From Halosimplex rubrum (GTDB taxonomy: Archaea; Halobacteriota; Halobacteria; Halobacteriales; Haloarculaceae): a DNA stretch of 64,000 bases. The stretch is from assembly GCF_013415885.1 (NCBI RefSeq), contig NZ_CP058910.1, forward strand, positions 806,001 to 870,000, read 5' to 3'. This document shows, in pieces, positions 16,920 through 54,196 of this stretch. Positions within the stretch are counted from its first letter, which is position 1. Every line of letters starts with the position of its first letter. The notes beneath the pieces are model-generated. The model did not search any database and had not been told where the DNA came from. It saw only the letters and a list, made by a program, of their open reading frames with translations. Made by a program: the position numbers and the translations under genes.

Positions 16920-16994
16920 GGGCGCGTAGCTCAGCCCGGATAGAGCGTCGGACTTCTAATCCGACGGTCGTGGGTTCGAATCCCACCGCGCCCG
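16920..16994 (+). tRNA. tRNA-Arg (anticodon TCT)
   Basis: All arms can be folded by eye: acceptor GGGCGCG (16920-16926) with CGCGCCC (16987-16993) and discriminator G; D arm GCTC/GAGC; anticodon stem TCGGA/TCCGA with loop CTTCTAA, so the anticodon is TCT at 16955-16957 (decodes AGA); T arm GTGGG-TTCGAAT-CCCAC. The gene is intact although its 3' end is copied downstream, so it is the functional half of an integration site. CCA is not encoded. Confidence 0.95.
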
Positions 16995-21240: not shown

Positions 21241-21522
21241 GTGGTCGAAGACCTGCCGACGGACGTGCGGACGGTGCTGTCGCAGTTGTTCGCCGAGGGC
21301 CGGCGCGCGCTCGGCGACGACGACACCGCCACGGCACGCGAGACCGTGACGAGCGCCGCCGCGGTCGTCCGGAACAAACTCCCCGAGGGCGAGTTCGAGC
21401 GGGAACTCCGCCACGGCTGCGAGCGAGTGGTCGACCTGCTCGACGCCGGAGACCCGGCCGACGCCGAGGCCGCGGCGGAGTACCTGACCGCGATGGAGCG
21501 GCGGCTGGCGAACGTCGAGTGA
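21241..21522 (+). CDS. Conserved haloarchaeal hypothetical protein
   Basis: From the GTG at 21241 the product is 93 residues: VVEDLPTDVRTVLSQLFAEG, then a helical hairpin repeat pattern with VRNKLPEGEFERELRHGCER and AAEYLTAMERRLANVE. It looks like a small helical bundle of a haloarchaeal family without known function. The start is uncertain because the frame stays open upstream into non-coding-like sequence. Confidence 0.55.
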   Translation: MVEDLPTDVRTVLSQLFAEGRRALGDDDTATARETVTSAAAVVRNKLPEGEFERELRHGCERVVDLLDAGDPADAEAAAEYLTAMERRLANVE

Positions 21523-21544
21523 GACCCGAAGGGAATCGGACCGC

Positions 21545-21844
21545 TCAGAAGCCCTGATTCGGCTCGGCGGCCATCGGGTCGTAGCCGGCGATGCGGTACT
21601 CGCGGGAGTCGGTGCAGTCGTCGTTGGCCGACGCCAGGTCGCCGACGGCGTAGTCGAATCGATGCTCGAAGTCGCCGCTGTGGGCCTCGACGCGGTCGAG
21701 TACGTCCGCCGCGGATAGCTCCTCGTCGTGGTCCTCGCGGAACGCGGCGGCGTTTTCGGCGGCCGTCGCGGCGGTCTCTCCGTCGGCGTCGAACTCGCTT
21801 TCGAACGCGTCGGCCAGTTCGTGCTCGAAGTCGTCGTCGCTCAT
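21545..21844 (-). CDS. Conserved acidic hypothetical protein
   Basis: A 99-residue acidic protein starting MSDDDFEHELADAFESEFDA, with a helical N-terminal half and a C-terminal segment YRIAGYDPMAAEPNQGF. No motif, membrane segment or family is recognised. It lies downstream of the creatininase-family gene on the same strand with 39 bases between them. Confidence 0.6.
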   Translation of the reverse strand: MSDDDFEHELADAFESEFDADGETAATAAENAAAFREDHDEELSAADVLDRVEAHSGDFEHRFDYAVGDLASANDDCTDSREYRIAGYDPMAAEPNQGF

Positions 21845-21883
21845 GTGCGAGCGTTCGGAACCGTCCCACCTGTCTCTTGCGAC

Positions 21884-22657
21884 TCAGACGTGGTCGCGGG
21901 GCATCAGCTCCTCGAAGGGCTGGTCGTCGAGCCACTCGGCGAGCCGAACTAACTGATCGCTGGCGGCCTCGAACAACTGCTCGCCCTTCTCGCGGGTCGC
22001 GTCGGTCTGGTCGCCCAGCACGCCGCTCTCGGTGTTGTCGATGGCGTCGTAGAAGGTGCGGGCGCCGTGTTTGCGCAGGCCCTCGAAGTGCTCCACGTCG
22101 CGGACGCCCTCGTCGCGGGCGCGCTCGAACTGGTCCTCGCGGACGAGGGCGTCGTCGATGTGGAGCATCATGGCGGTCTCCTTGGGGCCGCCGTGGGGGC
22201 CGTTGTACTCGAACAGGTCGTCGACCAGATCGGGGATGGACTCGTCCCACATCCACTCGACGGCGTAGGCGACCTCGTCGTCGCGGACCCGCCGACCGAC
22301 CTCGCGGAGATGCTGGACGTTGCCGCCGTGGGCGTTGACGAAGACCACGCGGTCGACGCCGTGGTAGGTGAGATTGCGGGTGAGCGACTCGACGTAGTCG
22401 CGGAAGACGCCCGGCTCGACCCACATCGTGCCGTTGAACTGGCGGTGGTGGGGGCTGACGCCGACGTTGATGGTCGGGGTGCAGAGATACCCCGTGCGCT
22501 CGGCGGCCTCGCGGGCGAGCGCCTGCGCGATGCGGTGGTCGGTCGATTCGGGGAGGTGCGGGCCGTGCTGTTCGGTCGATCCGAGGGGGACGAGCGCCAG
22601 CGACTTCTCGGCGAAGTACTCGCCCAGTTCCGGCCACGTGTGGTCTCCGAGGTACAT
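21884..22657 (-). CDS. Creatininase-family amidohydrolase (ArfB-like)
   Basis: The 257-residue protein shows the creatininase metal site: PLGSTEQHGPHLP (about 25-37), a DHR segment and NAHGGN (about 108-113), followed later by NGPHGGPKETAMML with a Glu. In archaea one member (ArfB) deformylates an intermediate of riboflavin and F420 biosynthesis; others act on creatinine-like amides. Length and motifs fit either, so only the family is assigned. Confidence 0.82.
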   Translation of the reverse strand: MYLGDHTWPELGEYFAEKSLALVPLGSTEQHGPHLPESTDHRIAQALAREAAERTGYLCTPTINVGVSPHHRQFNGTMWVEPGVFRDYVESLTRNLTYHGVDRVVFVNAHGGNVQHLREVGRRVRDDEVAYAVEWMWDESIPDLVDDLFEYNGPHGGPKETAMMLHIDDALVREDQFERARDEGVRDVEHFEGLRKHGARTFYDAIDNTESGVLGDQTDATREKGEQLFEAASDQLVRLAEWLDDQPFEELMPRDHV

Positions 22658-22706
22658 ACAGGCCCGTGTGACTCGGCGGGCTTACCGTTTGCCCGTTGCG
22701 TGGGCA

Positions 22707-22792
22707 CTGTAGTAGCATTTGAAAGACATCGCTCGGATGACCGCAGGCAGTCGTGCGGTCGACCGTGCAAACGCTTTCAAATTCTACTATAG
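22707..22792. repeat. 86-bp terminal-inverted-repeat element (MITE-like) or large hairpin
   Basis: Outer arms 22707-22725 and 22774-22792 match at 17 of 19 positions (CTGTAGTAGCATTTGAAAG against CTATAGTAGAATTTGAAAG) and are AT-rich against GC-rich surroundings. Inside, GACCGCA and TGCGGTC form a second 7-base stem. No coding capacity and no clear target duplication. It stands just upstream of the tubulin-like island. Confidence 0.5.
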
Positions 22793-22851: not shown

Positions 22852-24741
22852 ATGGAAGCTCTATCGAACCGTGGACGGCTTTCCCTCGGCTGCTGGGTCG
22901 TCGCAGGGGTGCCGATCGCGGCCTCGTTCGTCCAGGCGGCGATCGCGCTCGCCGGCGTCAACGCCCTCGAGATACCCGTTATCGGGGCGATGACGGCGCT
23001 CCTGCAGTCGGTCGCGGTGTTCGACGCCGCGGCCGTCGTGTTCAGGAACAGTCCGGAGGCCCTGCTCGCGCTGTTCGTGCTCGTGCTAGTCGGCTGGCTC
23101 GCCGAAGGTGGCGCCGTGTTCGTCCTGCGAAACCGGACGGCGGGGCTCGGCACCGCGGGGTTCGTCACGCTGTTTTTCGCGCTCTTCCTGCTCGTGTACT
23201 CGCCGCTGTTCGGCGCCGATGTCCCGGCGGTCGAGCTGGCCGGTTTCGTGCTGGTTCCGGTCGTCGCGTCCGGCGCGAGCTGGGCGGCGGTCCTGACCTA
23301 CGAGTGGTCCGAGACGCTGGACGAGGAGACCGAGGAGACCCTCGCGGCTGCGGAGCGCCGAGCGGACGACGCCCGCGACACATTCGACGCGGCGATCCGG
23401 AAGCGGGCCGGCGAGCGGGTCCGCGAGCGGGTCGACACCGTCGTGCCCGACGCCGTCGAGGCGCTCGACGCGCGCGCGGCGTCGTTCCGGGCGGACTGCG
23501 ACGGGGTGACCGACGAGGTCGCGGAGCTCCGGTCGGCGAGCGGCGTCGATAGCCGAGAGCGCAACCAGCGGGCCGACCAGTTGCTGGCGACCGCGGGGGA
23601 CCTGGACGGGCAAGCGGCCGCGGACGACGCCCTCGAGACGTTCCGGACGGCGCTCGCCGACGCGGTTCGCGACCGGTTCGACGACGTCCACGTCGTCTCC
23701 AGATACGGCGAGGCCTACGAGGTCCGAAACGTCCGCGAGTACGCCGAACTCGACCTCCCGTCGCTCGGCCTGACCGCTCAGGTCGGGGGGAACAGACACG
23801 ACCTCGCCGACCGGATCGCCGCCGCGATCGACGAGGGGACAGCGCTGTCGGACGTCGCTCGGGCCGTCGAGCGGGCCGACGAGCACCTCGCCGCGCTGAA
23901 GCGGACGATCGACGAACACGAGTCGGCGGTCGCCGAGGCGACCGAGGCGGCGGAGGAGCGTCTCGAGAGGGTCGCGGCACTGACCGAATCGATGGACGGG
24001 GCGGCCGGCGAGCGACTCTCGGAGTTCCTCGTCGAGGGGCGGTTCGACCGGGAGGGTGCGGACGTCCCGTCGGCGGTCGGCGTCAGGGAACGACTGCGCA
24101 CGGCGCGCGAGGACCTGCACGCGTGCCGGTTCGACGACGCACGACGCCGCGCCGAGGGGGCGCGAGACACCGCCGAGCACCTCGTGGCCACCGCGGAGTT
24201 CTTCGCAAACAGCGTCGTCGCGACGATCGAACAGCGGGTGGAGTCGGTTCCGCTCCCGCCGGATGTCGACCGGGAGTTGGCGGCGGCGATGACCGTCCCG
24301 ATCGGCCGGACGCATCCGGTGAGCGCCACCGTCGACGAGGACACCGTGCGCCTGCGCTACGAGGACGACTCGGTCGACGACGACCGCGGGGCGGCCGACG
24401 GGCCCGCACACCAGCGCTCGGGACCCAGCGTCGACCAGACGGACGCGAACGTCGACGACGTTCGGTATCTCCTTCGGGAGCTCCGGGACGGCGCGTCGAC
24501 GTCGAGCGCCGACGACACCGTCGAGCTGCAGACCGACGCGCTCCCGGAGCGGTACGTCACCGAGCCGCTCCTCTCGGCGGTCGAATCGCTGGCGAGCAGG
24601 CGCTCGGACGTGGTCGAGGTTTCGATCCCGGCGAACGCGCCGCCGGGCTTTCTCACCGTCGTCGTCGCGGACGGGGAGAGCCCCAAATCCGTCGTCGCCG
24701 AACTCTACGACGAGTTCCTCGACACCCAGCGGCCGGACTGA
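22852..24741 (+). CDS. Polytopic membrane protein with long cytoplasmic coiled-coil (island gene A)
   Basis: The 629-residue protein has four or five hydrophobic helices in its first 150 residues and no cleavable signal. The rest (about 155-629) is cytoplasmic and largely helical, with heptad-rich, Ala/Glu/Arg-rich stretches such as EETLAAAERRADDARDTFDA, an Asp-rich linker near 510, and a small C-terminal domain VVEVSIPANAPPGFLTVVVA. It is the first gene of the 11-gene operon and precedes a tubulin-like GTPase gene by 43 bases. I infer a membrane anchor for that GTPase. No family is recognised. Confidence 0.8.
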   Translation: MEALSNRGRLSLGCWVVAGVPIAASFVQAAIALAGVNALEIPVIGAMTALLQSVAVFDAAAVVFRNSPEALLALFVLVLVGWLAEGGAVFVLRNRTAGLGTAGFVTLFFALFLLVYSPLFGADVPAVELAGFVLVPVVASGASWAAVLTYEWSETLDEETEETLAAAERRADDARDTFDAAIRKRAGERVRERVDTVVPDAVEALDARAASFRADCDGVTDEVAELRSASGVDSRERNQRADQLLATAGDLDGQAAADDALETFRTALADAVRDRFDDVHVVSRYGEAYEVRNVREYAELDLPSLGLTAQVGGNRHDLADRIAAAIDEGTALSDVARAVERADEHLAALKRTIDEHESAVAEATEAAEERLERVAALTESMDGAAGERLSEFLVEGRFDREGADVPSAVGVRERLRTAREDLHACRFDDARRRAEGARDTAEHLVATAEFFANSVVATIEQRVESVPLPPDVDRELAAAMTVPIGRTHPVSATVDEDTVRLRYEDDSVDDDRGAADGPAHQRSGPSVDQTDANVDDVRYLLRELRDGASTSSADDTVELQTDALPERYVTEPLLSAVESLASRRSDVVEVSIPANAPPGFLTVVVADGESPKSVVAELYDEFLDTQRPD

Positions 24742-24784
24742 GCGAGGGCGAAAAGCAAAGTGAGTCCCTACCAATAAACTGACA

Positions 24785-26605
24785 ATGGACACGACCTGTA
24801 AGATCTGTTTCGAGGAGGTAGCGGCACCGTCTCTCGAGGCGCATCTCGCGAACCAACACGGGGACAGCCCGGCCTCGGTTCGCGAAGTGTACCCCGAGCA
24901 GTACGACGAACTCTTCGTCGGCGACGAACTCGCGCCCGGGTGGGCCGACGACGCTCCGGCGGACGGAAACGGGGAGTCGGACGGCGACCGTGACGACGGC
25001 GGCCGCGAGGACGGCGAAGCCGGCGCCGGAGCCGCCCGCCAGGCGAGCGACAGCGGGTCCCGGACCGACCGGGCGGTGGCGTCGGGCGGGAGCGGCTCCG
25101 CCTCGGCGCGTACGAGAGAGGAGACGGGGGCGACCGGAGCCGACGGGTCGCGTGCCGGGAACGCCGGCGAGCCGCGGGGAACCGGGACGGGTAGCCCGGC
25201 GGTCGGGCAGGACGCCCCCGGCGCGGAGGGGCTCCAGTCCGGGAAGAAGTGGCTGATGATCGGCGTGGGCGGCGCGGGCAATCACATCATCGACGCGGTG
25301 TTGATGCGCCGCGATACGCTCCGCGAGCGCGACGAGCCGCTCGCGGGCGTCTGGGAGGGCGGACTGGCCGACTACGGGAGCCTCAACACGAACATCGCCG
25401 AACTGGGCGACACTTACTACGCGCGCGAGGACCGCGGCTACGACCGCCAGCAGCTCCTCCAGAACGCGATGATCGCGGCGCGCAAGCACAACCACCAGGG
25501 CGCGGGGCGCAAGTGGACCGTCGGGCGCAAGCTCATGCAGGCCGACTTCGACGGCGAGTCGAACGCGCTCCGGGACCGGTGGGACATCTCGGCGAACAGC
25601 CTCGAGGCGTCGCAGGCGGTGATGCTGGTCCACAGCGTCACCAAGGGGACCGGCTGCGGGGCGACGCCGGTCCTCGCGGAGAACATCAGCGAGATGGCCG
25701 GCCAGGGTGTCGGTCTCGACGACGAACTCGCGGTCACGAAACCGATCCTGAGCTCGGTCATCATCCCCGAGGACGACGACTTCGGCGGGAGCGAGATGGT
25801 CCGCGGCGTCGCGGGGATGGCCCACCTCTCGAAGGCCGTCGACGGGATCATCCCGTTCGACAACCAGCGTCTCGACGAGGTCGGGGCCGACATCTCGGTC
25901 GCCATCGACGAGGAGCGGCTCAACGCCTACAACCCGATCAACTACGTCGACATCAACAGGCTGCTGGTGGCGTTTCTGGAGGCGTTCACGATGTCGTCGA
26001 CGCCCCAGAACTACGACCAGTCGGCGACGCGGCAGATCAACGGCGAGGTGTTCGACGTGCCCGACAGCTTCCGGCCGGCCGAGCCGAAATACCCCGCGGA
26101 CAGCGACCGCGACCACCAGCCGGCGGTCATCATGGCGCCGGTGATCGGACGGTCGTTCGCGTCGTCGTTCGACCGGTCGACGCTGAGCACGCTCGCCCGC
26201 ACCGCGTTGTTCAAGGGTCAGCTCATCGATTTCGACCCCTCGACCGCCTGGGGCGGGTCGTTCATGATCTACGGCCCCGAAGAGAAGATGGAGGAGATCG
26301 CACCGCTGGTCAACGCCAACGAGCTGAAGGACATCCTCAGTGGCGAGGAGTTCCTCGACCGCGGTTCGACCGATCCCGGACAGTCGGTCGACCTGTACGT
26401 CAACCAGCTCGTCGTTCCCGGGATCGACAGCGTCCATCTCTGGGGCGTGCTCTGGAACCCGCAGATCCCGTCGCTCGGCAAGATGTACGACCACGTGAAG
26501 GAGCTGTCCGAACAGAGCGACAGCCAGCAAGCCGACAACGTCCGCGAACTCTGGCCGCTCGTCGAGTCGCTGTTCGGTGCGATGGGCCGCGACGCGATGG
26601 GGTAA
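24785..26605 (+). CDS. Divergent FtsZ/tubulin-superfamily GTPase with N-terminal zinc finger (island gene B)
   Basis: The 606-residue protein starts with a C2H2-type finger (Cys5, Cys8, His20, His25), then a Gly/Asp/Glu-rich linker (about 50-152) and a tubulin-like GTPase domain (about 155-600). The domain has GVGGAGNHIID at its first loop, LNTNIAEL, a T4 loop KGTGCG (about 287-292) in place of GGGTGxG, FDNQRL at the T6 position, and NYVDINRLL near the T7 region. It should bind GTP and may polymerise. The Lys in T4 and only one T7 acidic residue suggest altered catalysis. Neither FtsZ1/2 nor CetZ. Confidence 0.85.
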   Translation: MDTTCKICFEEVAAPSLEAHLANQHGDSPASVREVYPEQYDELFVGDELAPGWADDAPADGNGESDGDRDDGGREDGEAGAGAARQASDSGSRTDRAVASGGSGSASARTREETGATGADGSRAGNAGEPRGTGTGSPAVGQDAPGAEGLQSGKKWLMIGVGGAGNHIIDAVLMRRDTLRERDEPLAGVWEGGLADYGSLNTNIAELGDTYYAREDRGYDRQQLLQNAMIAARKHNHQGAGRKWTVGRKLMQADFDGESNALRDRWDISANSLEASQAVMLVHSVTKGTGCGATPVLAENISEMAGQGVGLDDELAVTKPILSSVIIPEDDDFGGSEMVRGVAGMAHLSKAVDGIIPFDNQRLDEVGADISVAIDEERLNAYNPINYVDINRLLVAFLEAFTMSSTPQNYDQSATRQINGEVFDVPDSFRPAEPKYPADSDRDHQPAVIMAPVIGRSFASSFDRSTLSTLARTALFKGQLIDFDPSTAWGGSFMIYGPEEKMEEIAPLVNANELKDILSGEEFLDRGSTDPGQSVDLYVNQLVVPGIDSVHLWGVLWNPQIPSLGKMYDHVKELSEQSDSQQADNVRELWPLVESLFGAMGRDAMG

Positions 26606-26607
26606 CC

Positions 26608-28236
26608 ATGGTTACGACACTCACACTCGCGGTCGGCGTCGTCGGCTTCGTCGCCGGGCTCGGTGCGGGCGTGCTCGGCTACTGGCGGTTCGCCGGCGAC
26701 GACTCGCCGGACTCGCTGGGGCGCATCGCTTCGAAACTGGACACCGATCCCGACACCGAGGCCGTCGCGGCGGCCGTCGACGACCTCGTCGGCGCCGTCG
26801 AGACGATCGGGCGGGCCGGGGAGTTCCCGGACTCCGTGTCGGTCCCGCGGACGGACCCGCCGGCGGCGCAGGCGTCGGCGCTCGAACGGGCCGTCTCCGA
26901 CCGCGAGGTCGTCGTGTCGACGCCCGACGACGCGTCGTCGGGGTCGTTGGACCCGCTCTCGTCGCCCGACGGCGACTCGACCGCGGGGAACGGCGGGACG
27001 ACGCCGCTCGACGTCGACGCCGCGGCGGAGACGGCCGACTCGACGGAACGGGCGAACCACGTCAGCGAGGCGGCCCAGGCCGTCGAGCGGACGCGGTCGA
27101 CGCGGAGCCGGGACGTCGAGCGACTGCTGGGGTACCTGGCCGACCCCGACGGCGTCGACCAGCGACGCATCGAGGAGACGCTCACGTCGGTCGTCGAGAC
27201 GACCGCCGTCCACCACGAACTCGAGGAGGCGCTCTCGCGGGTCGACACCTCGTCCCTCGACTCGGCCTACGAGGCGACCGCGCTGCGCGACGCGCTCAGG
27301 GATGTCGAGGGCGAGGTCGCCCGGGGCGTGCGCGACCTCGCTGACGGCTACGCCACGACCGTCGAGGCGGCCGCGGACTGCCGGTCGGACCTCGAGTCGT
27401 TCGAACGGGCGGCGACGGACTTGGTCGCCACGGCCGCCGAGCAGACGACGGTCGACCTCTCCGGCGAAGGCTCGACCCGCAGTCAGATGGCCGCGCTGTC
27501 GGCGGCCGTCGACCGCGGCGAGGTGGCGATCCGAGCCGACGAGCAGCGGATCGAACGGGCCGCGACCGACGTCGAGCAACGCGTCGGGCCGGAGTCGTCG
27601 CTCGCCCAGGACCTCGTCGATCAGCTGGCCGAGCGCCGGACCGTCGACGGCCAGGAGTTCGAGGCGACGCTCGCGCGAGTTCTCGAGGCGCTCGACGAGG
27701 CCGAGACGGTGCGCCACCGGCTGGACGACGTCGACCGCGACGCCGTCTTGGACGTGGCCGACGACCTCGCCGAGGCGCTCGACCGGTCCGAACCGGTCGA
27801 GGGGCTCCTCGCCGACCGCGTCGACGAGATCACCGATACCGTCGAGCGGGCCAACGACGCCGACACGGTCGTCGTCTACGCGGCCCGCCGGGAGCTGTCG
27901 TACTACGACCGGACGCTCCTCCCGCTGCTCCGGGAACGCGAGCCCGAAGACACGCAGAACGCGGCGCTGGAGCAGCGCCTCTCGGAGGTCGAACAGCGAC
28001 GGTCCGACATCAGGACGAACTACCCGACCCGCTACCCGGAACACAACCACACCATCCCGATCCACTTCCTGGAACTCGTCGAGGCGCTCCACGAGGCCGC
28101 CACGGACGCCAGAGCCGACGGGGACTCCGAACGGGCCGACGGACTGCTCACCGCCGCGGAGCTCGCGATGGACTGGGTCGAAGAGCTCTACGAGCGCCAC
28201 GCCTACAGCGTTCTCCTCCAGCAGCTCCGGGGCTGA
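26608..28236 (+). CDS. Membrane-anchored coiled-coil protein (island gene C)
   Basis: The ATG at 26608 follows the previous stop by 2 bases and gives 542 residues. One N-terminal transmembrane helix (about 2-26, LTLAVGVVGFVAGLGAGVLG) leaves the rest in the cytoplasm. Residues 40-150 are a low-complexity acidic linker; 150-540 are helical with long coiled-coil-like stretches. It ends in WVEELYERHAYSVLLQQLRG. The arrangement of membrane helix plus long helical region before a tubulin-like gene repeats that of genes A and G. Confidence 0.78.
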   Translation: MVTTLTLAVGVVGFVAGLGAGVLGYWRFAGDDSPDSLGRIASKLDTDPDTEAVAAAVDDLVGAVETIGRAGEFPDSVSVPRTDPPAAQASALERAVSDREVVVSTPDDASSGSLDPLSSPDGDSTAGNGGTTPLDVDAAAETADSTERANHVSEAAQAVERTRSTRSRDVERLLGYLADPDGVDQRRIEETLTSVVETTAVHHELEEALSRVDTSSLDSAYEATALRDALRDVEGEVARGVRDLADGYATTVEAAADCRSDLESFERAATDLVATAAEQTTVDLSGEGSTRSQMAALSAAVDRGEVAIRADEQRIERAATDVEQRVGPESSLAQDLVDQLAERRTVDGQEFEATLARVLEALDEAETVRHRLDDVDRDAVLDVADDLAEALDRSEPVEGLLADRVDEITDTVERANDADTVVVYAARRELSYYDRTLLPLLREREPEDTQNAALEQRLSEVEQRRSDIRTNYPTRYPEHNHTIPIHFLELVEALHEAATDARADGDSERADGLLTAAELAMDWVEELYERHAYSVLLQQLRG

Positions 28237-28290
28237 GTCCCGCTCCGGGACCGACCGGGACGGGGATCGGCCCGCGACTGGCAACCATCC

Positions 28291-28356
28291 GGATACCGAA
28301 CGAACCTGTTCGGATATCAAAATTGATTGATTCGGATACTCTTATCATTCTGGATA
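28291..28356. promoter_or_regulatory. Four phased GGATA direct repeats before gene D
   Basis: GGATA occurs at 28291, 28312, 28334 and 28352, about two helical turns apart, with similar flanks (CCGGATAC, TCGGATAT, TCGGATAC, CTGGATAC). They fill the only sizeable gap in the plus operon, and CTTATC at 28341-28346 between the last two repeats could be the TATA element for the ATG at 28373. They may bind a regulator on one face of the helix. Confidence 0.45.
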
Positions 28357-28372
28357 CGCCTGTTGGGTAGTA

Positions 28373-29596
28373 ATGCCATACCTGTTTGTCGGGGCAGGAC
28401 AAGCGGGAAGCGGGATAGTAGACGACATTTTCGAACATACAAATATGTCAAAGATAGCCACACCTGTTATTTTCAACTCCACAATTAGAGACCTACAGAA
28501 TCTATCGAACGTCGAGGCCGACCGGTGGTACGGGATCGCCGAACAGTACGGGCTCGTTGAGGGCACGACCGAGGGGTTCGAGGAGCAGGTAACGGGTGGA
28601 TTCGGCCGGGACCCGGTCCGGGCCGACGAGGTCATGGACGAACACGCCGACGAGTTGCAGTCCGCGCTGCGGGAGCAGGTGGGTAGCGCGGAGGTCGACG
28701 CGGACGAGGACGAGGTCCCGGGGTCGGGCGACGTGCCGTTCGCGTTCCTGTTTTTCGGCCTGGGCGGCGGGACGGGCTGCGGGATCGCGCCGCACATCGC
28801 GGAGGCGATCTCGTCGTTCACCGACGGCACGACGCGGATCATCGCCGTCTGCGTCCTCCCGAACACCGAGGGACCGGTCGGCGGCGACGAGGAGGAGGCC
28901 AGTCCGAGCAGGCAGGCCTGGAACGCCCGCTACGGGCTCGACCGGATCGAAGACGTCGTCGACGGCGTAGTTCTCGTCGACAACCAGCGCCTCTCCTATC
29001 ACAACGCGGCGGAGGGGCAGTTCACCGAGTACAACGAGTACATCGCCGACGCCGTCGTCGACTTGATCTCCGGGCCGATCCTCGAGCGGATCGACCGGAG
29101 CGACTACGATGTCGACCCGCCGATCATCGACCTGCAGGACATCGTCACGTCGCTGTCGTTCGGCGTCGGGGAAGACGACAGGGAACCGGGGTACGCGGCG
29201 CTCGGGCGATCCGTCGCGATGACGCGCTCGCTGCGCGGATACCTCCTCCCGTTCGTCGGCAGGAAATCGGTCGACGCGCTCGCGCTGGCCAACCTCGCCG
29301 ACTCGAAACAGACGGTCGCGGGCGCCGACTCCCGCGATGCGCGGAAGGCGATCGGCCTCCTGCGGGCGCCGAGCCGGTACATCCGCGAGACGGACTACCG
29401 GATCGGCACGTCGAAGCTCCGCACGTTTCTGACCACGCGCTGCGACGAGGTCAACCTGGGCGCGACGCTCACCCGGCGCAACCTCGTCTCGTTCACCGCC
29501 CTGTTCACCTACCACCGGGACGACATCGACCGGATCGCCGAGATCGAGCGCCTGGCGGCCGAATACGAGGACGAATCGGAGGCGGTCGTCGCATGA
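28373..29596 (+). CDS. Divergent FtsZ/tubulin-superfamily GTPase (island gene D)
   Basis: The 407-residue protein is a GTPase core without extra domains. It has FVGAGQAGSGIVDD at the first loop, the best tubulin signature of the three, FGLGGGTGCGIAP (about 128-140), VDNQRL at the T6 position and IIDLQDIVTSL in the T7 region, where two Asp match the catalytic D-x-x-D of FtsZ. It is therefore the member most likely to hydrolyse GTP. The first 40 codons are strikingly AT-rich compared with the rest. It overlaps gene E by 4 bases (ATGA). Confidence 0.88.
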   Translation: MPYLFVGAGQAGSGIVDDIFEHTNMSKIATPVIFNSTIRDLQNLSNVEADRWYGIAEQYGLVEGTTEGFEEQVTGGFGRDPVRADEVMDEHADELQSALREQVGSAEVDADEDEVPGSGDVPFAFLFFGLGGGTGCGIAPHIAEAISSFTDGTTRIIAVCVLPNTEGPVGGDEEEASPSRQAWNARYGLDRIEDVVDGVVLVDNQRLSYHNAAEGQFTEYNEYIADAVVDLISGPILERIDRSDYDVDPPIIDLQDIVTSLSFGVGEDDREPGYAALGRSVAMTRSLRGYLLPFVGRKSVDALALANLADSKQTVAGADSRDARKAIGLLRAPSRYIRETDYRIGTSKLRTFLTTRCDEVNLGATLTRRNLVSFTALFTYHRDDIDRIAEIERLAAEYEDESEAVVA

Positions 29597-29874
29597 GCCG
29601 TCGGCTCCGGGTCGCCGGAGTCGCGGTCGGGCTGGCGTGTCTCGCGCTCGCGCTCGCGACGGGAGGCGCGGCCGGTCAGGACGAGGCCGACAACGAGTCG
29701 GTGGGGTCGCTGGTCGACGACGCCGGGAATGCGACGCTCGCACTGGAGCGGGCGAGCGACCTGCGCGACGACCGGTTCCGCCACATCGGGAGCGGGGGGA
29801 CCGTCGGACTGGGGCTCGGCCTCGTCGTCGGTAGCATCGCCTCCTTCGGGTTGTGGAGGGCACGGCTCCGATGA
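29593..29874 (+). CDS. Small surface-exposed bitopic membrane protein (island gene E)
   Basis: A 93-residue protein with a signal peptide (about 1-28, ending GGAAG), a short acidic ectodomain of about 40 residues with two N-glycosylation sequons (NESV, NATL), and a C-terminal membrane helix (about 68-88) with the basic tail WRARLR inside. It overlaps both neighbours by ATGA, so it is translationally coupled to the GTPase gene D. It looks like a miniature of gene J. Confidence 0.75.
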   Translation: MSRRLRVAGVAVGLACLALALATGGAAGQDEADNESVGSLVDDAGNATLALERASDLRDDRFRHIGSGGTVGLGLGLVVGSIASFGLWRARLR

Positions 29875-30941
29875 ACAGGCGGCTGGTGTCACTGGCGGGC
29901 GCGATCCTGCTCGTCGCGTTCGCGCCCGGCGCCGCCGGGGCGGCCGACCCGACCGAGCCCTGTTCCGGGGTCGCCGACTCCCTCGACGGCGAGGAGAAGG
30001 CGGTGGTCGCCACGACGGTCGCGGGCACGCGAACGAACGGTTCGGAGATGGTCCTCTACCCCGGAAGTCGACTGTCGCTGACGCTCTGTCAGGCGGACGG
30101 GGAGGCGCTCCGGACCGCGGGCGGCGACCTCTGGGACCTCGGGGCACACCCGGCGATCGCCAACAAGAGCGACGGAGAGACCCACTGGACGGTGACCGTC
30201 GACGGGGCCGACGAGTCCGCGGCGTTCCCCGCGCTCGTGCGGAACCAGTCCCAGGTCGTTCAGGGACCGTCACTTCGGGTCCAGACGGGGCTTCGATACG
30301 ACTCACAGGTCACGAACGGGACGCTCCTGTTCGCGGACGGCGCCTCGCGGGCCGCGGTCGAGCGCAACGAGAGCGACTTCTTGGCGGCCATGGAAGCGGT
30401 TGGGGCGAATACGACGACGCTGAACGGGACGGCGATCGCGACCGGCGAGCCGGTCGACGCCGGGGCGCTCGAACGGGCGAACGAGACGCTGTCGAACATC
30501 ACTGGGGCGACACAGGCTATGACGACGCGAAAGCAAACAACGGAGCGACTGCTCTACGGGCAAGCGGCGAGTCGGATCGGGAACGAAGACGCGCTGACGG
30601 TCATCGAGGCGATGAACGACGAGGAGCGGGCGGTGCGCCGGGACACGCGCGAGCGGTTGCGGGCGTACGCGGCGGCGGTCGACGAGCGGCGCGCGGCGCT
30701 GCGCGACGCCGCCCGGACGAACGTCCTCCTCGGGCTGGTGGTCGGGTGCCTGGTCGGGCTGGTGGCCGGCGCGGTCCGCCCGTATCTGGCTTACCAGGAG
30801 TACGACGACTTCCGCGCGACGACCAGCTCGGGGTCCTACGAACGGCAGGTGGTCTACGCTCCGGTCGCCGTCGGTCTCGCGCTCGTCGCGATCGGGATCG
30901 GGCTCGCGGCCTGGACCGGCGCTCTGGGGGTGATCGCGTGA
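29871..30941 (+). CDS. Secreted-domain membrane protein (island gene F)
   Basis: The ATG at 29871 gives 356 residues: signal peptide (about 1-22, ending AGAA), an ectodomain of about 250 residues with many sequons (for example NGSE, NKSD, NQSQ, NETL) and two cysteines that may pair, then two membrane helices (about 283-305 and 330-352). The ectodomain begins with predicted beta strands and becomes helical. It shares ATGA and GTGA overlaps with genes E and G. No family is recognised; position and glycosylation sites suggest contact with the S-layer. Confidence 0.78.
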   Translation: MNRRLVSLAGAILLVAFAPGAAGAADPTEPCSGVADSLDGEEKAVVATTVAGTRTNGSEMVLYPGSRLSLTLCQADGEALRTAGGDLWDLGAHPAIANKSDGETHWTVTVDGADESAAFPALVRNQSQVVQGPSLRVQTGLRYDSQVTNGTLLFADGASRAAVERNESDFLAAMEAVGANTTTLNGTAIATGEPVDAGALERANETLSNITGATQAMTTRKQTTERLLYGQAASRIGNEDALTVIEAMNDEERAVRRDTRERLRAYAAAVDERRAALRDAARTNVLLGLVVGCLVGLVAGAVRPYLAYQEYDDFRATTSSGSYERQVVYAPVAVGLALVAIGIGLAAWTGALGVIA

Positions 30942-33043
30942 GGCCCGCGACCCGAGCGGTCGGCGGTATCTTCCTGCTGGTCGTGCTCGGCGGCGCCGTG
31001 AGCGCCGGCGTGTTCGTCTCCGTCGGCTCGCAGGTCGCCGTCTGGTCGACGGTGGCGATCGTCCCGCTGCTGGTGGCCGCGGGCGCGCTGTGGGTGCGAA
31101 ACACGATCCACACGACCGGGACGAGCCAGACGGAGTACGCCAAGCGCCGCGCGCGGGAGGTCGGCGAGCAGTTCAAGCAGTTCTGGGAGCGCCGTGAGCG
31201 CGTCCACGAGGCATACCCCGAGCTGTTTGCACAGGGCGACTCGCTGTCGGTCGACGGGGTGGTCACCGACCTCGCCGAGCGAGGCATCGAGTTCGACACC
31301 GACACCGGCGCGCTCTCGCTGTCGGACCGGCACCGCGACCTCGAGGAGATAAACCGACTCGAGGGGGAGATCGAATCGCTCGAGGACCGCCTCGACGCCG
31401 AGATCGCCGACCGCGTCCGCGACGAGGTCGGACGGGTGAACGCGGAGTTCGACCGCCTGTCGGACCTGGTGGCGGTCGACCCGCCGTGCGTCGCCGCCGA
31501 TGTCGCCGACCCCGACGAGACCGACGACTTCCAGTGGCGAGCGGTCGGCGAGCAGTACACCGCGCACCGCGAGTGGGCCGACGAGACGGTCGACGCCGCG
31601 GTCGACCGCGTCCGCTCGACGCTCGAATCCGCGGACGACGTCGACGAAGCGACGGTCGCCGACCACCTCGACGACGCCCGGTCGGCCCGCGCCGCCGGCG
31701 AGTACGCGGCGGCGGTCGACGCGCTCCTGCGGGCGCGGGACGTGCTCCGACAGACCGGCGAGGACGTCTTCCGCTCCGAGACCGCGGCGCTGGAGTCGCT
31801 CGTCGGGACCGTGCGGGACTCGGGCGCCCTTCGGTACGCCGACGACAGCCGCGTCGAGGACCTGGAGGCGGTCGCCGCGGAGGCCGACGCGCTCGACTCC
31901 GCGATGGACATGGACGCGGTCGGGTCCGCGCGGGCGGACCTCCGGAGGGTCTGTTTAGCCGTGCTCGAAGACCTCTCGTCGGACGTCTCGTCGCGGCTCG
32001 CGGCGCTCGACCGCGCGGACCCGCCCGAGGGGTACTACGACCGACCGGACGCGGCGGACATCGACTACGCCGCCCGCCTGCGGGACGTCGACGACCTCGA
32101 GACGTTCGAGCAGCGATGGGGGACTGCGGCCGAACAGCTGACCGAGGCCCTCGACGCGCTCGGACCGAAGGCCGAGGTCGTGGGCGCCTACGACCAGGTG
32201 GCCGAGCGCATCGAGGAGGAACTGCGCTCGACGGGGACCGTCGAAGGCGCGGACCTCCCCGTTCGCGAACACGAGGAGCAGTTTCTCGGGCTGTACTACC
32301 GACAGAACGACGGCGTCGAGTTCGACCCGAGCGCGCCGCTGCTGACGACGGGCGCCGACGGCGGAGAGACCCACACGCTCGAGGTGACGGTCCGGTTCGA
32401 GACGGGCGGTTCCGAACGGGCGGCGACCGTCTCGGTCGCCGGTCCCGGCTTCGAGGACGAGCGGACCGTCGAGACCCACCTCGCGACGACGGTCACGTTT
32501 TCCGAGGTACCGTTCGGCGAGTACACGGTCACGGCGACCCCCGGCGTCGACGACAGCAGCCCCGCGACGACGACGGTCACCCTGGACGGCGACGCCGAGT
32601 GCAAACTCGAGATGGCGGACGTGACGCTGCGCGACCGGCTGTGCGACGACATCGACGACCCCGACACGTACCTGTCGGAGCTCGGCGACCGGTTCGCCGA
32701 CGAGTTCGACGCGGAGGGACATCTGTCGTCGGCGATGTCGTTCCCGATCGACGACGACTACGCGCCCTGTCTGCTCGCGGTCTGGGCCGACCGCGAGGGC
32801 CACTCGGTGACGCTCGCCGACGACACGGTCCTCGTCTACGACGAACGGACGCTGCGGCAGGAGATCGAAAACGTGATCCAGTACAACCTCGAGGCCGGCG
32901 AGACGGTGGCGTTCGACAAACTGCGCGACACCTTCCTGTCCGCGCCAGTTCCCGACGAGGAGCTGACGGCGCTGGTCGAGGGATCCGAGGAGGCCGACGC
33001 CGTTCGGACCGACGACGGCGCGCTCACGAAGGGGGACGAGTAG
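30938..33043 (+). CDS. Two-helix membrane protein with coiled-coil and Ig-like domain (island gene G)
   Basis: The GTG at 30938 overlaps the previous stop (GTGA) and gives 701 residues. Two helices (about 6-50) are followed by a cytoplasmic helical region to about 460 (including RLEGEIESLEDRLDAEIADR), a beta-rich domain (about 475-560) like the carboxypeptidase-regulatory/Ig fold (VTFSEVPFGEYTVTATPGV), and a C-terminal domain with SSAMSFPIDDDYAPCLLAV that faintly resembles the end of gene A. The next gene starts directly at its stop and encodes the third GTPase, repeating the anchor-GTPase order. Confidence 0.8.
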   Translation: MRPATRAVGGIFLLVVLGGAVSAGVFVSVGSQVAVWSTVAIVPLLVAAGALWVRNTIHTTGTSQTEYAKRRAREVGEQFKQFWERRERVHEAYPELFAQGDSLSVDGVVTDLAERGIEFDTDTGALSLSDRHRDLEEINRLEGEIESLEDRLDAEIADRVRDEVGRVNAEFDRLSDLVAVDPPCVAADVADPDETDDFQWRAVGEQYTAHREWADETVDAAVDRVRSTLESADDVDEATVADHLDDARSARAAGEYAAAVDALLRARDVLRQTGEDVFRSETAALESLVGTVRDSGALRYADDSRVEDLEAVAAEADALDSAMDMDAVGSARADLRRVCLAVLEDLSSDVSSRLAALDRADPPEGYYDRPDAADIDYAARLRDVDDLETFEQRWGTAAEQLTEALDALGPKAEVVGAYDQVAERIEEELRSTGTVEGADLPVREHEEQFLGLYYRQNDGVEFDPSAPLLTTGADGGETHTLEVTVRFETGGSERAATVSVAGPGFEDERTVETHLATTVTFSEVPFGEYTVTATPGVDDSSPATTTVTLDGDAECKLEMADVTLRDRLCDDIDDPDTYLSELGDRFADEFDAEGHLSSAMSFPIDDDYAPCLLAVWADREGHSVTLADDTVLVYDERTLRQEIENVIQYNLEAGETVAFDKLRDTFLSAPVPDEELTALVEGSEEADAVRTDDGALTKGDE

Positions 33044-34285
33044 ATGTCGGGCTCCGACACCTACACGCGGTGGGCGGTCCTCGCGGCGGGCGAGGGCGGC
33101 GGGCGCATCGCCTCGAACCTCTTCGGCCGCGCGGACAACCCGGGGATCGACGACCGTATCCTGGTGATGAACACCAACCGCGCGGACATCCGCAACACCA
33201 TCGACCGGATGGAGGCCGAGACGACGATCGACACGGAGTCGATCGAGCTGAACCACACGGTCACCTTCGGCGACCTCGACGGGGTCGGGAACTACTTCCC
33301 CGGCGGCGAGGCCTGCGCCGAGGCGGACCTGGACCGCATCATCGAGCAGCTCGACGCCGCCGAGGTGGAGAACGCCGACGCGTTCCTGTACGTCACGACG
33401 CTGGGCGGCGGGACCGGCAACGGGTCGGTGCCGTATCTCATCAACAGCCTGAAATCGAACCCGCCGTCGGCCGCGCTCGACGACACGATCCACGTGGCGC
33501 TGGCGGCCTGGCCGTACAGCCACGAGGGCGGCCAGCGACACTTCAACGCGGTCTGCGGGCTCTCGCGGCTCCTCCGGTGGTACGACGGCAGCCAGAACGC
33601 CGACATGGTCGTGCTCATCTCGAACTCTCACATCGCGGACGACGCCGGGTTCGAGGATGTGGTCGACCCGGACGGGGACCGGTACTCGACGGTCAACGAG
33701 ATGGCGATCAGCGCGATGGACCTCATGATCGGCGCGGGCCGCGAGACACGCGGGGTCGTCGACGTGAGCGACTACGTGACCTGGCCCTCGCGGCTCGACG
33801 CCTACCACTTCACGCCCGGCGTCGCGCTCGAACAGCCCTCGGTGTTCGAACTCGACCTGCTGTTCGACAAGGCCGCCGACAACGGGTTCGTCCCGCTGGA
33901 CCCGACGACCTCGCGCGTGGTCTACGGGATCGTCCGCGCACCGACTCACCTCGTCGAGCAGGGCGAGTACAGCGAGGCCGAGCTCGACGCGGCGCTCCAC
34001 GAGTGGCTCGACGCCAACGGGTACGACGACATCGTCCACCGGATGACGACGCTGACGCCCGTCGACCGGCGCGATGACACCCTCGACGTCCTGCTCATGT
34101 TCGGCGGCTTCGACCTCGACCCGCTGCTCTCGGAGTCACGCACCTCCTTCGACGCGATCATGGAACAGGCGACCGAGCGCGGCATCCAGTCGGACGTGGA
34201 CACGCCCGGCGAGGAGTTCTCGACGGATCGCTTCCGGGCGATCCGGCGTAACCTCGAGGACTATCTCTCGGCGAGCAGGGGGTGA
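33044..34285 (+). CDS. Divergent FtsZ/tubulin-superfamily GTPase (island gene H)
   Basis: The 413-residue protein begins directly after gene G. It has AAGEGGGRIASNLF at the first loop, MNTNRADI at the position where FtsZ has its NTD motif, the T4 signature LGGGTGNGSVP (about 119-129) and VVDVSDYVTW at the T7 region, where two Asp fit the D-x-x-D catalytic pattern. The T6 region reads ISNSHIADD, unlike the DNQRL of its paralogues. It is a probable GTP-binding polymer subunit. Its stop overlaps a possible GTG, but the next gene more likely starts 6 bases further on. Confidence 0.87.
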   Translation: MSGSDTYTRWAVLAAGEGGGRIASNLFGRADNPGIDDRILVMNTNRADIRNTIDRMEAETTIDTESIELNHTVTFGDLDGVGNYFPGGEACAEADLDRIIEQLDAAEVENADAFLYVTTLGGGTGNGSVPYLINSLKSNPPSAALDDTIHVALAAWPYSHEGGQRHFNAVCGLSRLLRWYDGSQNADMVVLISNSHIADDAGFEDVVDPDGDRYSTVNEMAISAMDLMIGAGRETRGVVDVSDYVTWPSRLDAYHFTPGVALEQPSVFELDLLFDKAADNGFVPLDPTTSRVVYGIVRAPTHLVEQGEYSEAELDAALHEWLDANGYDDIVHRMTTLTPVDRRDDTLDVLLMFGGFDLDPLLSESRTSFDAIMEQATERGIQSDVDTPGEEFSTDRFRAIRRNLEDYLSASRG

Positions 34286-34286
34286 T
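34277..34286 (+). promoter_or_regulatory. Strong Shine-Dalgarno site for gene I
   Basis: AGGGGGTGAT matches the ideal AGGAGGTGAT at 9 of 10 positions and ends 4 bases before the ATG at 34291, which decides for that start over the GTG at 34282. Confidence 0.55.
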
Positions 34287-34290
34287 CCCG

Positions 34291-37200
34291 ATGAGGACAC
34301 AACACCTCCGGACGGCGACGCGCGCGACAGCGACCGCCGCGCTCGTCGCCGTCGCCATCTTGGCGCTGGCTACCGGGGGCGCCGCCGCGGCCGAGGGCGA
34401 CGCCGCGGGACAGTCGGCGGTCGCCGCGGCGACGGCGCCGGGCGGCCCCGCCGCTACCGGTCCGAGCGCCTCGGTCGCCGCGGCGAACGTAACGGCGAAC
34501 CGCACCGGTCCCGACAACGTGACGATCAGCGTCCAACAGGGCCTGTTCCCGCCGAACACGAGTGCCGCCAACGCGACGGTCACGCTCTCGGCGCCGGGGC
34601 GGGACGCGACCGACCCCTACCCGGCCAGCGGGACGCAGTCGGGCGCGTTCGTCTACCGCGTTCCGCTCGCCGACCTCTCGACGGCGGCTCGGGACCTCGG
34701 CTCGGCGACGGTCGCGGTCACGCCCGGCACGCCCAACGCCACCGCCCACGAGGTGTCGCTCGACCTCCGGTCGCTCTCGTTCGGGTCGGCGGACAACGCG
34801 ACGCTCAACGAGTCGACGCTCAGCGTCCCCGTCGACCGATCGCTTGGCGTCGTCGACGGGGCGGCCATCGCGGTCTCGGCGGGGTTCAGCGAGTCGGGGC
34901 CGGTCACTCAGTGGACCGCCCACCTCGACGGGAACGGGACGGGCCGTCTCACCGTCCCGCTGGCCCGGTTCAACCCGTCGCGGCTGCTCAACGAGACGCT
35001 CGCGCTGCAGCCCCAGTTCGGCTTCGAACCGGACGCGCAACTGGCGGTGAACCCGCGCGAGGCGGCGGGCGACGCGACCGTCAATCGAATCGCCGACGGT
35101 CTCGCGGTCCGCCACCCGCTCCTGTTCGAGAGCGTGCGGTACGCGGTCACCGTCGACACGACAGACCCGGACGGCAGCTACGTCCGCGCACACACGCCGG
35201 CTCAGCGCGGGCGTCTGGCGCTCCCCGGGCGGTTGCTCATCGGTGAGCAACGGCGGATCACCGTCGACGCCGCGGCACACTCGACGGCGGTCTTCTCGGT
35301 GACGCACACGGTGTCCCGGCCGGAACGCGTCGTCAACGGGACGGCGCTGAACGTCTCCGGACTCGTCCCGTCGGGGCTCCGCGCGGTCTGGGTCGACAAC
35401 GGAACGGCGGTGACCAAGCTCTCGAACTCGACGACCGAGCGCGGCGCGCTGGCGCTCCCGGCGGATCTCGTCGGGAACGGCGTGGAATCGGTGTTGCTCC
35501 AGGGCGAGACGCTCCAGCCGGTCGGGATCGCCGACGTGGTCGGCACGGCGAGCGCCCAGCAGACGGGCGCTGCCGACGGCGCGACCGCCGGGGCGACCGC
35601 CACCGGCACCGACGGGTCGAGCGGGACGACGACCGAAACCGCGACGGGGAACGCCACCGGGCTCGTCGGTGCCGGCACGACGGCGGCCGACCCGACGCTG
35701 GGTCTCTCAGCGCTCGCCGCGCCGCTGATCGCACTCGTGGTCGGCGTGCTCTGTTTCGGGATCGGGTACTTGCTCGAACAGAACGGAGACAGCGAACACG
35801 GCGCGACCGGCGGTCTCCTGGCGTTCTTCGCGGTGTTCGGAGCGGGGCTCGGCTACTGGCTTGGCGGGAGTTCCGCCAGCGGCGCCCTGCTGTTCGAACT
35901 CGCCGCGATCGCGGGCGGGGTGGTGTTCGGCGCCGCGTATCTGGGCGTCGGAGCCGTAACCCGGACGCGGCCGGCGAGTCAGCGCAACCAGCTAGCGGCC
36001 CTGCTCGTCGCGACGACCGTCCCACTGGCCGCTGCGGCACTGCTGGTCGCGTTCGCGTCGGATCTGTCGCTGCTCGCCGCCGGCGGCGCCTACAGCGCGG
36101 TCGCGGGCGGACTGGTCGGCGTCGCGGCGAACACGGCCGGCGGCGCGAGCGGCGAGGCGGCCGCCGCCGGTGCCGCGACGCGAACGGCGACCGTGACCGT
36201 CCGCCTCGTCGACGACCAACTCGATCGCCGGGTCCGCGACGCCGTCGAGGTGACCGTCACGCGCGCGTCGTCGTTTGATCCCCAGACCGAGCGGGAGCCG
36301 ACGAGCGACGGCACGGCGGCGTTCGACCTCTCGAAGGGGACCTACACCGTCGAGGCAACTTACGGCGGCCGCACGGAGTCGACGGAGATCCAGGTCGACC
36401 GGGACGACCGGTCGGTCGAACTCCGGTTTTCCCCGCGGGCGGTCGCGTTCGCGGTGCAGGACACCGACGAGCGGCCGCTCCCGGACGCCGACGTGACCGT
36501 CGTCGGCGACGACGGGTCGACGACGCGCCCGACCGACGCCGACGGACGGCTGTCGTTCGACGAGATCCCCGCCGGCGTCGACTCGCTGGACGTGAGCGTC
36601 TCCCGGCCTGGCTACGCCGAAAAGTCGCTGACGGTCTCCGTCGGCGGACAACGGACCGTGCCCGTCGAACTGGAGCCGCTCACGGGGACGTTACGGGCGA
36701 CCGCCACGCTCGACGGGCGACCCGTCGACGGCTTCTCGGTGACGGTCACGCCGGAGCGGGTCGACGCGGTCGGCGAGACCGACCGCGACGCGGAGACCGA
36801 CGGGAGCGGGCGGGCGCAGTTCGACGACCTCGCGGTCGGCGAGTACAGCGTCGGCGTGTCGCTCCCGCAGTCGCTCGACGGGTTCGGCACGACGGACGCG
36901 ACGGTCACCGTCGAGGAGGACCGGACAGCGACCGTCGACGTGCCGGTCGTCTTCGAATTCGACCTCTCGCGGGCCCAGCGGGACCGCGTGTCGGACGTAC
37001 GCGCGACGCTGGCGGACATCTCGAGCGCGTCGACCCGCGACACCGCGATCCCGGCCTACTACGCGAGCGTGGTCGAACGCGTCCTGGAGACCGCCGAGTC
37101 GATCCCCGATTCGGGGCACCCGTTCCTCGTCCACCGCACCGACCCGTCGGCGGTCGTCGACGCGTTGCTCGACGCGACGGAGGCCGCCGCCGACCAGATC

Positions 37201-37593
37201 GACGAGGCGATGGGGTCGAAACGCAACGTCGACCTGTTCTCGGCGTGCTCGGACCTGCCCGACGCCGACATCGAGTGGCAGGGATCGATCGCGGTCGACG
37301 ACACGCTCGCGCTCGCCGAGCGCGGCGTCGGCGAGCAGCGCGGCAGGTTCGCCGACCGGCTCGACACCGTCGACGAGGGCATCACCGACGAGCTCAGCGG
37401 ACTGGCGGAGATCAGCCCCGCCCGCGAGATGTGGGACAGCAGTCGAACGCTCGTCCGCGAGAGCACGGGCGTCGACACGACGGAACTCGACTCGGCCGCC
37501 GCGGTCGTCACCGCGGAGGCGCTGCTCGATGCCGTCGAACAGCTCTTCGAGCACGAACCGCTCCGCAAACGCATGAAACAAACCGTATTCTGA
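34291..37593 (+). CDS. Large envelope-spanning protein with Ig-like repeats (island gene I)
   Basis: The 1100-residue protein has a signal peptide (about 1-30), a beta-rich ectodomain to about 460 with many sequons (NVTA, NRTG, NTSA, NETL and others), four to six membrane helices (about 468-610), three carboxypeptidase-regulatory or Ig-like modules (about 630-880, for example PDADVTVVGDDGSTTRP and SFDEIPAGVDSLDVSVS), and a helical C-terminal region. It could connect the S-layer side with cytoplasmic filaments; the side of the Ig modules depends on the exact helix count. Preceded by GTPase gene H. Confidence 0.8.
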   Translation: MRTQHLRTATRATATAALVAVAILALATGGAAAAEGDAAGQSAVAAATAPGGPAATGPSASVAAANVTANRTGPDNVTISVQQGLFPPNTSAANATVTLSAPGRDATDPYPASGTQSGAFVYRVPLADLSTAARDLGSATVAVTPGTPNATAHEVSLDLRSLSFGSADNATLNESTLSVPVDRSLGVVDGAAIAVSAGFSESGPVTQWTAHLDGNGTGRLTVPLARFNPSRLLNETLALQPQFGFEPDAQLAVNPREAAGDATVNRIADGLAVRHPLLFESVRYAVTVDTTDPDGSYVRAHTPAQRGRLALPGRLLIGEQRRITVDAAAHSTAVFSVTHTVSRPERVVNGTALNVSGLVPSGLRAVWVDNGTAVTKLSNSTTERGALALPADLVGNGVESVLLQGETLQPVGIADVVGTASAQQTGAADGATAGATATGTDGSSGTTTETATGNATGLVGAGTTAADPTLGLSALAAPLIALVVGVLCFGIGYLLEQNGDSEHGATGGLLAFFAVFGAGLGYWLGGSSASGALLFELAAIAGGVVFGAAYLGVGAVTRTRPASQRNQLAALLVATTVPLAAAALLVAFASDLSLLAAGGAYSAVAGGLVGVAANTAGGASGEAAAAGAATRTATVTVRLVDDQLDRRVRDAVEVTVTRASSFDPQTEREPTSDGTAAFDLSKGTYTVEATYGGRTESTEIQVDRDDRSVELRFSPRAVAFAVQDTDERPLPDADVTVVGDDGSTTRPTDADGRLSFDEIPAGVDSLDVSVSRPGYAEKSLTVSVGGQRTVPVELEPLTGTLRATATLDGRPVDGFSVTVTPERVDAVGETDRDAETDGSGRAQFDDLAVGEYSVGVSLPQSLDGFGTTDATVTVEEDRTATVDVPVVFEFDLSRAQRDRVSDVRATLADISSASTRDTAIPAYYASVVERVLETAESIPDSGHPFLVHRTDPSAVVDALLDATEAAADQIDEAMGSKRNVDLFSACSDLPDADIEWQGSIAVDDTLALAERGVGEQRGRFADRLDTVDEGITDELSGLAEISPAREMWDSSRTLVRESTGVDTTELDSAAAVVTAEALLDAVEQLFEHEPLRKRMKQTVF

Positions 37594-37594
37594 T

Positions 37595-44603: not shown

Positions 44604-44606
44604 CGC

Positions 44607-46223: not shown

Positions 46224-46226
46224 GTC

Positions 46227-46859: not shown

Positions 46860-46868
46860 TCGGATCGC

Positions 46869-47927: not shown

Positions 47928-47942
47928 CGTTTCTGTGTCCCG

Positions 47943-54116: not shown

Positions 54117-54196
54117 CGACGATGAGAACGGGAACGCGACGATGACACGGGAGCCACGACGATGAAACGGGAGCCACGACGATGAAACCCGAGGAC
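54117..54196 (+). repeat. Four 20-bp tandem repeats ending in the polC start
   Basis: Units begin at 54117, 54137, 54157 and 54177, each CGACGATGA followed by variants of ACGGGAGCCA. The last unit contains the polC ATG at 54182, so the start region was copied upstream three times and each copy carries its own ATG. Confidence 0.75.

Follow-up and report, generated by a model that had tools for sequence, protein, structure and literature searches.

A tubulin-like GTPase with a predicted N-terminal C2H2-type finger, encoded in a conserved three-tubulin locus of haloarchaea

The window analyzed here, 64,000 nucleotides of the Halosimplex rubrum genome (contig NZ_CP058910.1, positions 806,001 to 870,000), contains a block of 16 genes spanning 26 kb, in which g1 to g11 lie on the + strand (22852–41510) and g12 to g16 converge on them from the − strand (41655–49058). 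The second gene of this block, g2, hereafter gene B, runs on the + strand from an ATG at 24785 to a stop codon ending at 26605 and encodes 606 amino acids. Two modules are fused in this protein: an N-terminal C2H2-type finger with a two-helix extension (24785–24934, residues 1–50) and a tubulin-superfamily GTPase with its C-terminal domain (25247–26605, residues 155–606; PF00091, Foldseek and hhalign), the GTPase beginning at K155. They are separated by a low-complexity linker predicted to be disordered (24935–25246, about residues 51–154; the low-complexity stretch itself at about 46–150), as judged from pLDDT, alignment entropy and gaps, and dN/dS. A preliminary description of this DNA had placed Cys5, Cys8, His20 and His25 in C2H2 spacing, and both the residue numbers and the coordinates proved exact, with the spacing C5-x2-C8-x11-H20-x4-H25. 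Only three cysteines occur in the whole protein: the finger ligands C5 and C8, and C291 within loop T4.

When residues 1–50 were modelled alone with AlphaFold2, a mean pLDDT of 85.8 was obtained and the element order E-E-H was predicted, with two short strands, a helix at 17–24 carrying H20, and helices at 29–35 and 37–45. The ligand pattern of C2H2 fingers (C-x2-C, a spacer, H-x3-5-H) was found as C-x2-C-x9..14-H-x4-H in all 36 distinct orthologues. In a Foldseek search with the finger model the top rows were C2H2 or UBZ fingers, none of them significant (E ≥ 1.6); among PDB sequences the finger profile matched C2H2 fingers best, with E no lower than 0.058, and VIA-align gave Z of at most 2.3, not significant by itself. 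No Pfam finger family passed its cut-off against six fragments, the best being zf-Di19 with 13.7 bits versus 27.5. UBZ-type and CHHC-type fingers, considered as specific relatives, were present among the weak structure matches, none significant. Since the ligands and the predicted layout fit, a C2H2-type finger without assignment to a known family is the best reading, with a predicted fold and putative zinc binding. Apart from gene B, no second copy of the finger was found in the same genome at E 1 or better.

The alignment of the orthologues, which come from many haloarchaeal genera, showed no variation at C5, C8, H20 or H25 across the 36 sequences. Before K155 the only further invariant column is M1, which is invariant by construction, as each start was set to the closest Met preceding the motif. 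No row had to be discarded for a missing motif, which was present in 41/41 and 24/24 ORFs (overlapping sets) and in 2/2 plasmid genes, a count that excludes three further PLSDB matches (H2, H3 and H5). The spacer between the ligand pairs varied from 9 to 14 residues while C-x2-C and H-x4-H stayed constant, and Y36 was invariant except in two divergent members (G318 and G150). The ligands are thus fixed while other finger residues vary, and the linker is marked by high entropy and many gaps. Because all four ligands are invariant in 36 distinct orthologues, the motif is, on this alignment, not a product of chance. Median dN/dS values for close pairs, which share sequences and are hence not independent, were 0.19 for the finger (81 pairs), 0.42 for the linker (87 pairs) and 0.10 for the GTPase (90 pairs), and the finger is under purifying selection. 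The preliminary description had suggested an orthologue alignment as its check and had named orthologues lacking the Cys/His residues or the finger region as evidence against it; with all four ligands kept in every orthologue and the linker drifting, no such orthologue was found.

The full-length model gave a confident GTPase, with pLDDT below 50 over residues 58–151 of the linker, and Pfam Tubulin PF00091 matched residues 157–366 with 49.8 bits versus a cut-off of 33. Both results agree with the earlier claim of a low-complexity linker of about 100 residues followed by a tubulin-like GTPase. The top Foldseek matches of the GTPase were CetZ2 (4b45, E 1.2e-15), Methanocaldococcus jannaschii FtsZ and CetZ1 (4b46), the predicted model, in which the GTPase and C-terminal domains form a tubulin fold, matching the CetZ and FtsZ structures. 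In hhalign against the five canonical tubulin-family proteins (FtsZ/CetZ-type) of the same genome (prob 98, E 2e-13), T1 GVGGAGN, the LNTN region, T4 TKGTGCGATP and T7 EVFDVPD were lined up, the residues of loops T1, T4 and T7 being those that we take to correspond to the FtsZ loops. D424 and D427, present in 36/36 sequences, align with the T7 aspartate pair of FtsZ. Given that the nucleotide loops and both aspartates are kept, GTP-driven assembly with hydrolysis at the filament interface is plausible; since the first glycines of GGGTGTG are missing from T4 and V422 stands in place of the T7 Asn, the activity may differ.

Gene B did not group with FtsZ, CetZ or Tubulin_2. It scored 28 bits against the FtsZ equivalog TIGR00065 (cut-off 295.2) and 14.9 bits against FtsZl1/Tubulin_2 (PF13809, cut-off 27). 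In a tree of 45 rows, to which long-branch warnings apply and in which the deep branching order was not recovered, the tubulins of the locus formed three separate long-branch clades apart from the FtsZ-type and CetZ-type rows, with supports of 100/100 (ZnTub, the gene B clade), 97/98 (tub2) and 100/100 (tub3). The 13 ZnTub rows, drawn from 10 of 22 named loci, the window and two divergent members, were apart from the three rows of the same genome that we presume to be CetZ-type; the canonical rows were only five, and trimming was lighter for a single gene B row (L028).

Within the block, the tubulin-like genes g2, g4 and g8 are mutually distant, and each is preceded by a gene whose product carries N-terminal hydrophobic stretches (g1, g3 and g7). 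Immediately upstream of gene B, g1 (22852–24741, +) encodes five hydrophobic stretches and then a long coiled-coil-like region; g3 (26608–28236, +), with one N-terminal hydrophobic stretch and a coiled-coil-like region, precedes the second tubulin-like GTPase, g4 (28373–29596, +; PF00091, 47 bits); and g7 (30938–33043, +), with two such stretches and then a coiled-coil-like region, precedes the third, g8 (33044–34285, +; PF00091, 46.6 bits). Both g4 and g8 lack the finger and fall in clades of their own. Between them lie g5 (29593–29874, +), a small protein with two hydrophobic stretches, and the membrane protein g6 (29871–30941, +). The + strand part ends with g9 (34282–37593), a large membrane protein with carboxypeptidase-regulatory/SpaA-type beta domains, g10 (37595–38629), with hydrophobic stretches at its N- and C-terminal ends, and g11 (38622–41510), large, with hydrophobic ends and weak Ig-like similarity. 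On the − strand, g12 (41655–44603) encodes a conserved PQQ-type beta-propeller (PF13360, 32.9 bits) and g13 (44607–46223) an AAA+ ATPase (PF00004, 99 bits), whose best NCBIfam models, pup_AAA, CdvC and CDC48, were all far below cut-off; g14 (46227–46859), g15 (46869–47927) and g16 (47943–49058) are uncharacterized and without hydrophobic stretches. Coiled coils of g1, g3 and g7 were judged by eye and hydrophobic stretches from hydropathy; 13 of the 16 proteins were scanned in frame with Pfam, and g3, g6 and g7 against NCBIfam only. As to known defence systems, PADLOC on 10 locus proteins returned only generic AAA+ similarity for g13, and as to a viral origin, neither the finger nor any of the three tubulin-like proteins (gene B, g4 and g8) had a match in PHROGs. 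Elsewhere in the window, its only tRNA gene, tRNA-Arg (tct), lies at 16920–16994 (+), about 6 kb from the locus, and the DNA polymerase D large subunit DP2 (54182–59536, +; 1784 aa) is interrupted by a LAGLIDADG-endonuclease intein (PF14890, PF14528).

The gene order is conserved. Gene g1 lies upstream of and adjoins gene B in 26/26 loci (22/22 named, 2/2 divergent and 2/2 plasmid), and it alone accompanies gene B in all of them, including the divergent ones missing most of the block. Genes g3, g4, g7 and g8 are kept in order in all 18 named loci with sufficient flank, and g12, g13, g15 and g16 occur in 8/9 non-divergent downstream stretches, the exception being G214, in which g12 to g16 are missing from the 18 kb read and the finger is kept.

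Orthologues were searched for in overlapping genome sets, in which low-scoring matches (E about 1e-11 to 1e-3), resembling other tubulins or the linker composition, were not counted. The family-level search (146 genomes) found five orthologues besides gene B itself. At order level, where 243 genomes were searched with a profile, strong matches numbered 22, with gene B itself and the divergent G318 and G150 among them; the locus is present in about 9% of the genomes sampled from the order. There were 27 strong matches at class level (292 genomes) and 6/294 at phylum level, own gene included and all within the same order. When an alignment served as the query, 22 loci were recovered from named genomes, in which a single-protein query had found no relatives; the hosts belong to Halomicroarcula, Halovenus, Halopenitus, Halorussus, Natrinema, Halorubrum, Halobiforma, Haloarchaeobius, Halobaculum, Natronomonas, a Haloquadratum walsbyi MAG and other MAGs. 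Gene B was absent from all 7 same-genus genomes listed in the family-level search, and its distribution is therefore patchy.

Five plasmid records in PLSDB have a gene B match, and the same block is present on plasmid PHS2 of Halobacterium salinarum R1 and on one plasmid of Halobaculum magnesiiphilum. PHS2 is a megaplasmid of a cultivated strain (locus L109, 5118–28687; gene B is OE_RS12070 there and g1 OE_RS12075), where both first tubulin genes are annotated “cell division protein FtsZ”, others as PQQ-propeller and ATP-binding, and most of the rest as hypothetical. On NZ_CP126159.1 of Halobaculum halobium (H3, 21416–22779), the match is divided between two proteins annotated as hypothetical, and the gene may be split there. 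In all three tubulin clades, the Haloquadratum MAG grouped with Halomicroarcula, and Halorubrum persicum with Natrinema and Halobiforma. Such groupings against family lines fit transfer of the locus as a block, and it seems to move as one.

A strong g4 was found in 22/243 genomes of the order, which include all 20 non-divergent genomes with gene B; the two with g4 and without gene B, G262 and G267, both lack g1 to g3. In G262 a 1157-aa Tubulin_2 protein (36.5 bits, cut-off 27) lies two genes away on the g4 side instead; at this locus (L116, 9511–19689) g4 to g11 are present, and Tubulin_2 together with two large uncharacterized genes replaces g1 to g3 on the opposite strand. In the divergent G318, the finger tubulin and g1 are found near a 1144-aa Tubulin_2 (FtsZl1-type) protein (44.5 bits). 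These Tubulin_2 genes near gene B and near g4 tie the finger module to FtsZl1 systems, for which Makarova and Koonin (2010, PMC2875224) predicted a membrane-remodelling role. Beside the divergent finger tubulin of G150 (L073, 3888–13524) lie a MoxR-like AAA+ protein, a HEAT-repeat protein of 1490 aa, and a protein of 456 aa that begins with GLGGGG and has no Pfam match.

What the finger binds can be approached through its composition. The preliminary description had proposed that it ties a filament to the chromosome, and DNA binding is indeed common among C2H2 folds; the top Foldseek matches of the finger, none significant, include DNA-bound C2H2 proteins, and the plasmid records would suit the linking of a tubulin filament to a chromosome or plasmid as in TubZ-like segregation. 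However, the finger is single and acidic, with a mean net charge of −0.13 per residue, roughly double the acidity of the last 450 residues, and −9 over residues 1–50. At helix positions −1, 2, 3 and 6 (counted relative to the first His as +7), the 36 sequences have D/E in 18, 18, 6 and 28 cases against only 4, 5, 3 and 1 cases of K/R/H/N/Q; the base-contact positions are mostly D/E/S. Proteins of halophiles are generally acidic, and the acidity is for this reason an argument and not proof against DNA binding. Against segregation, the locus is also chromosomal (the window genome is one 4.48-Mb contig, and Halovenus salina carries it on its chromosome), no DNA-binding adaptor family was matched among the 13/16 locus proteins scanned with Pfam, and membrane genes are many. 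A tether to DNA, the reading that the single acidic finger with its D/E-rich contact positions did not bear out, is thus quite improbable; with a single finger whose contact positions look unsuited to DNA, we judge protein docking to be much likelier.

As to the docking partner, the preliminary description had also named the AAA+ protein. Docking of g13 (or g12 to g16), which would disassemble or remodel the filament, is possible in principle and accords with the presence of g13 in 8/9 non-divergent downstream stretches and both plasmid loci, but it is not favoured: both divergent loci keep the finger, yet the stretches read there show no g13 orthologue as strong as elsewhere, G150 having a 97-bit AAA match only; G214 keeps it without g12 to g16 in the 18 kb read; and the gene that is always adjacent is g1. 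In those genomes g13 could lie elsewhere. We regard this partner as unlikely. Still less can be said for a self-association or regulatory domain that bridges neighbouring filaments or senses zinc or redox state; the long flexible linker and the invariant ligands amid variable finger residues would suit it, but nothing speaks for it specifically, the same-locus paralogues g4 and g8 do without a finger, and we consider it quite improbable.

Compared with known systems, gene B is closest to CetZ in solved folds (CetZ1 and CetZ2 of Haloferax volcanii) and shares its haloarchaeal hosts, which makes a shape or membrane-linked role plausible by analogy, but it differs from CetZ in its separate long-branch clade, its finger and linker, and its fixed 16-gene locus. 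With FtsZ (FtsZ1/FtsZ2) it has in common the PF00091 GTPase and the T1 and T7 aspartate motifs, but it falls far short of the TIGR00065 cut-off and its genome has separate FtsZ-type genes. TubZ partition systems likewise use a tubulin-like GTPase, at times on plasmids, whereas the gene B locus is also chromosomal, rich in membrane genes and without a recognized adaptor gene. Like gene B, FtsZl1/Tubulin_2 is a divergent member of the superfamily in multi-gene, membrane-associated loci, but PMC2875224 describes a coiled coil following its GTPase and mentions no finger, the words “zinc” and “finger” having 0 occurrences in that paper. The preliminary description knew of no tubulin-family protein with an N-terminal zinc finger, and in open-licence literature, including PMC9871819, PMC9856176, PMC5898192 and PMC3349469, we likewise found no description of such a protein or of this locus. 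PMC9856176 mentions “non-canonical” archaeal members, which may include gene B-type proteins.

Taken together, the reading that we prefer is a membrane-docked tubulin. The GTPase of gene B would assemble into GTP-dependent filaments beside the cell membrane, and the finger, on its flexible tether of about 100 residues, would act in protein docking and hold on to a partner in the membrane, so that filaments form at the membrane because the finger binds a membrane protein. The likeliest partner is g1, whose gene lies directly upstream and encodes a multi-pass membrane protein, and more precisely its cytosolic coiled-coil; g1 is the best candidate because it is the sole gene adjoining gene B in all 26 loci; this adjacency also fits simple co-transcription. 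Gene B, the two further tubulin-like proteins and their membrane coiled-coil partners would then form an accessory, horizontally transferred machine with a membrane-linked cytoskeletal or envelope-remodelling role, served by the AAA+ ATPase. We give this reading as a whole a probability of about one half; filament formation, docking on g1 and membrane remodelling are what we infer from gene content, and the conserved gene block with its membrane proteins points to an undescribed membrane-linked cytoskeleton.

To our knowledge, archaeal tubulin-family proteins have so far been understood through FtsZ1/2 and CetZ. More tentatively, the locus might encode an unrecognized archaeal machine of three mutually distant, co-encoded tubulins, each with a membrane coiled-coil partner, in which the first zinc-finger tubulin known recruits membrane machinery, and which travels as a unit and exchanges its finger-tubulin module with an FtsZl1 module. 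Since the cultivated Halobacterium salinarum R1 carries the locus on PHS2, this idea is directly testable. If true, it would add three deep lineages to the tubulins, one of them with a strictly conserved finger, and would mean that prokaryotic tubulins can gain docking domains and act as multi-tubulin assemblies.
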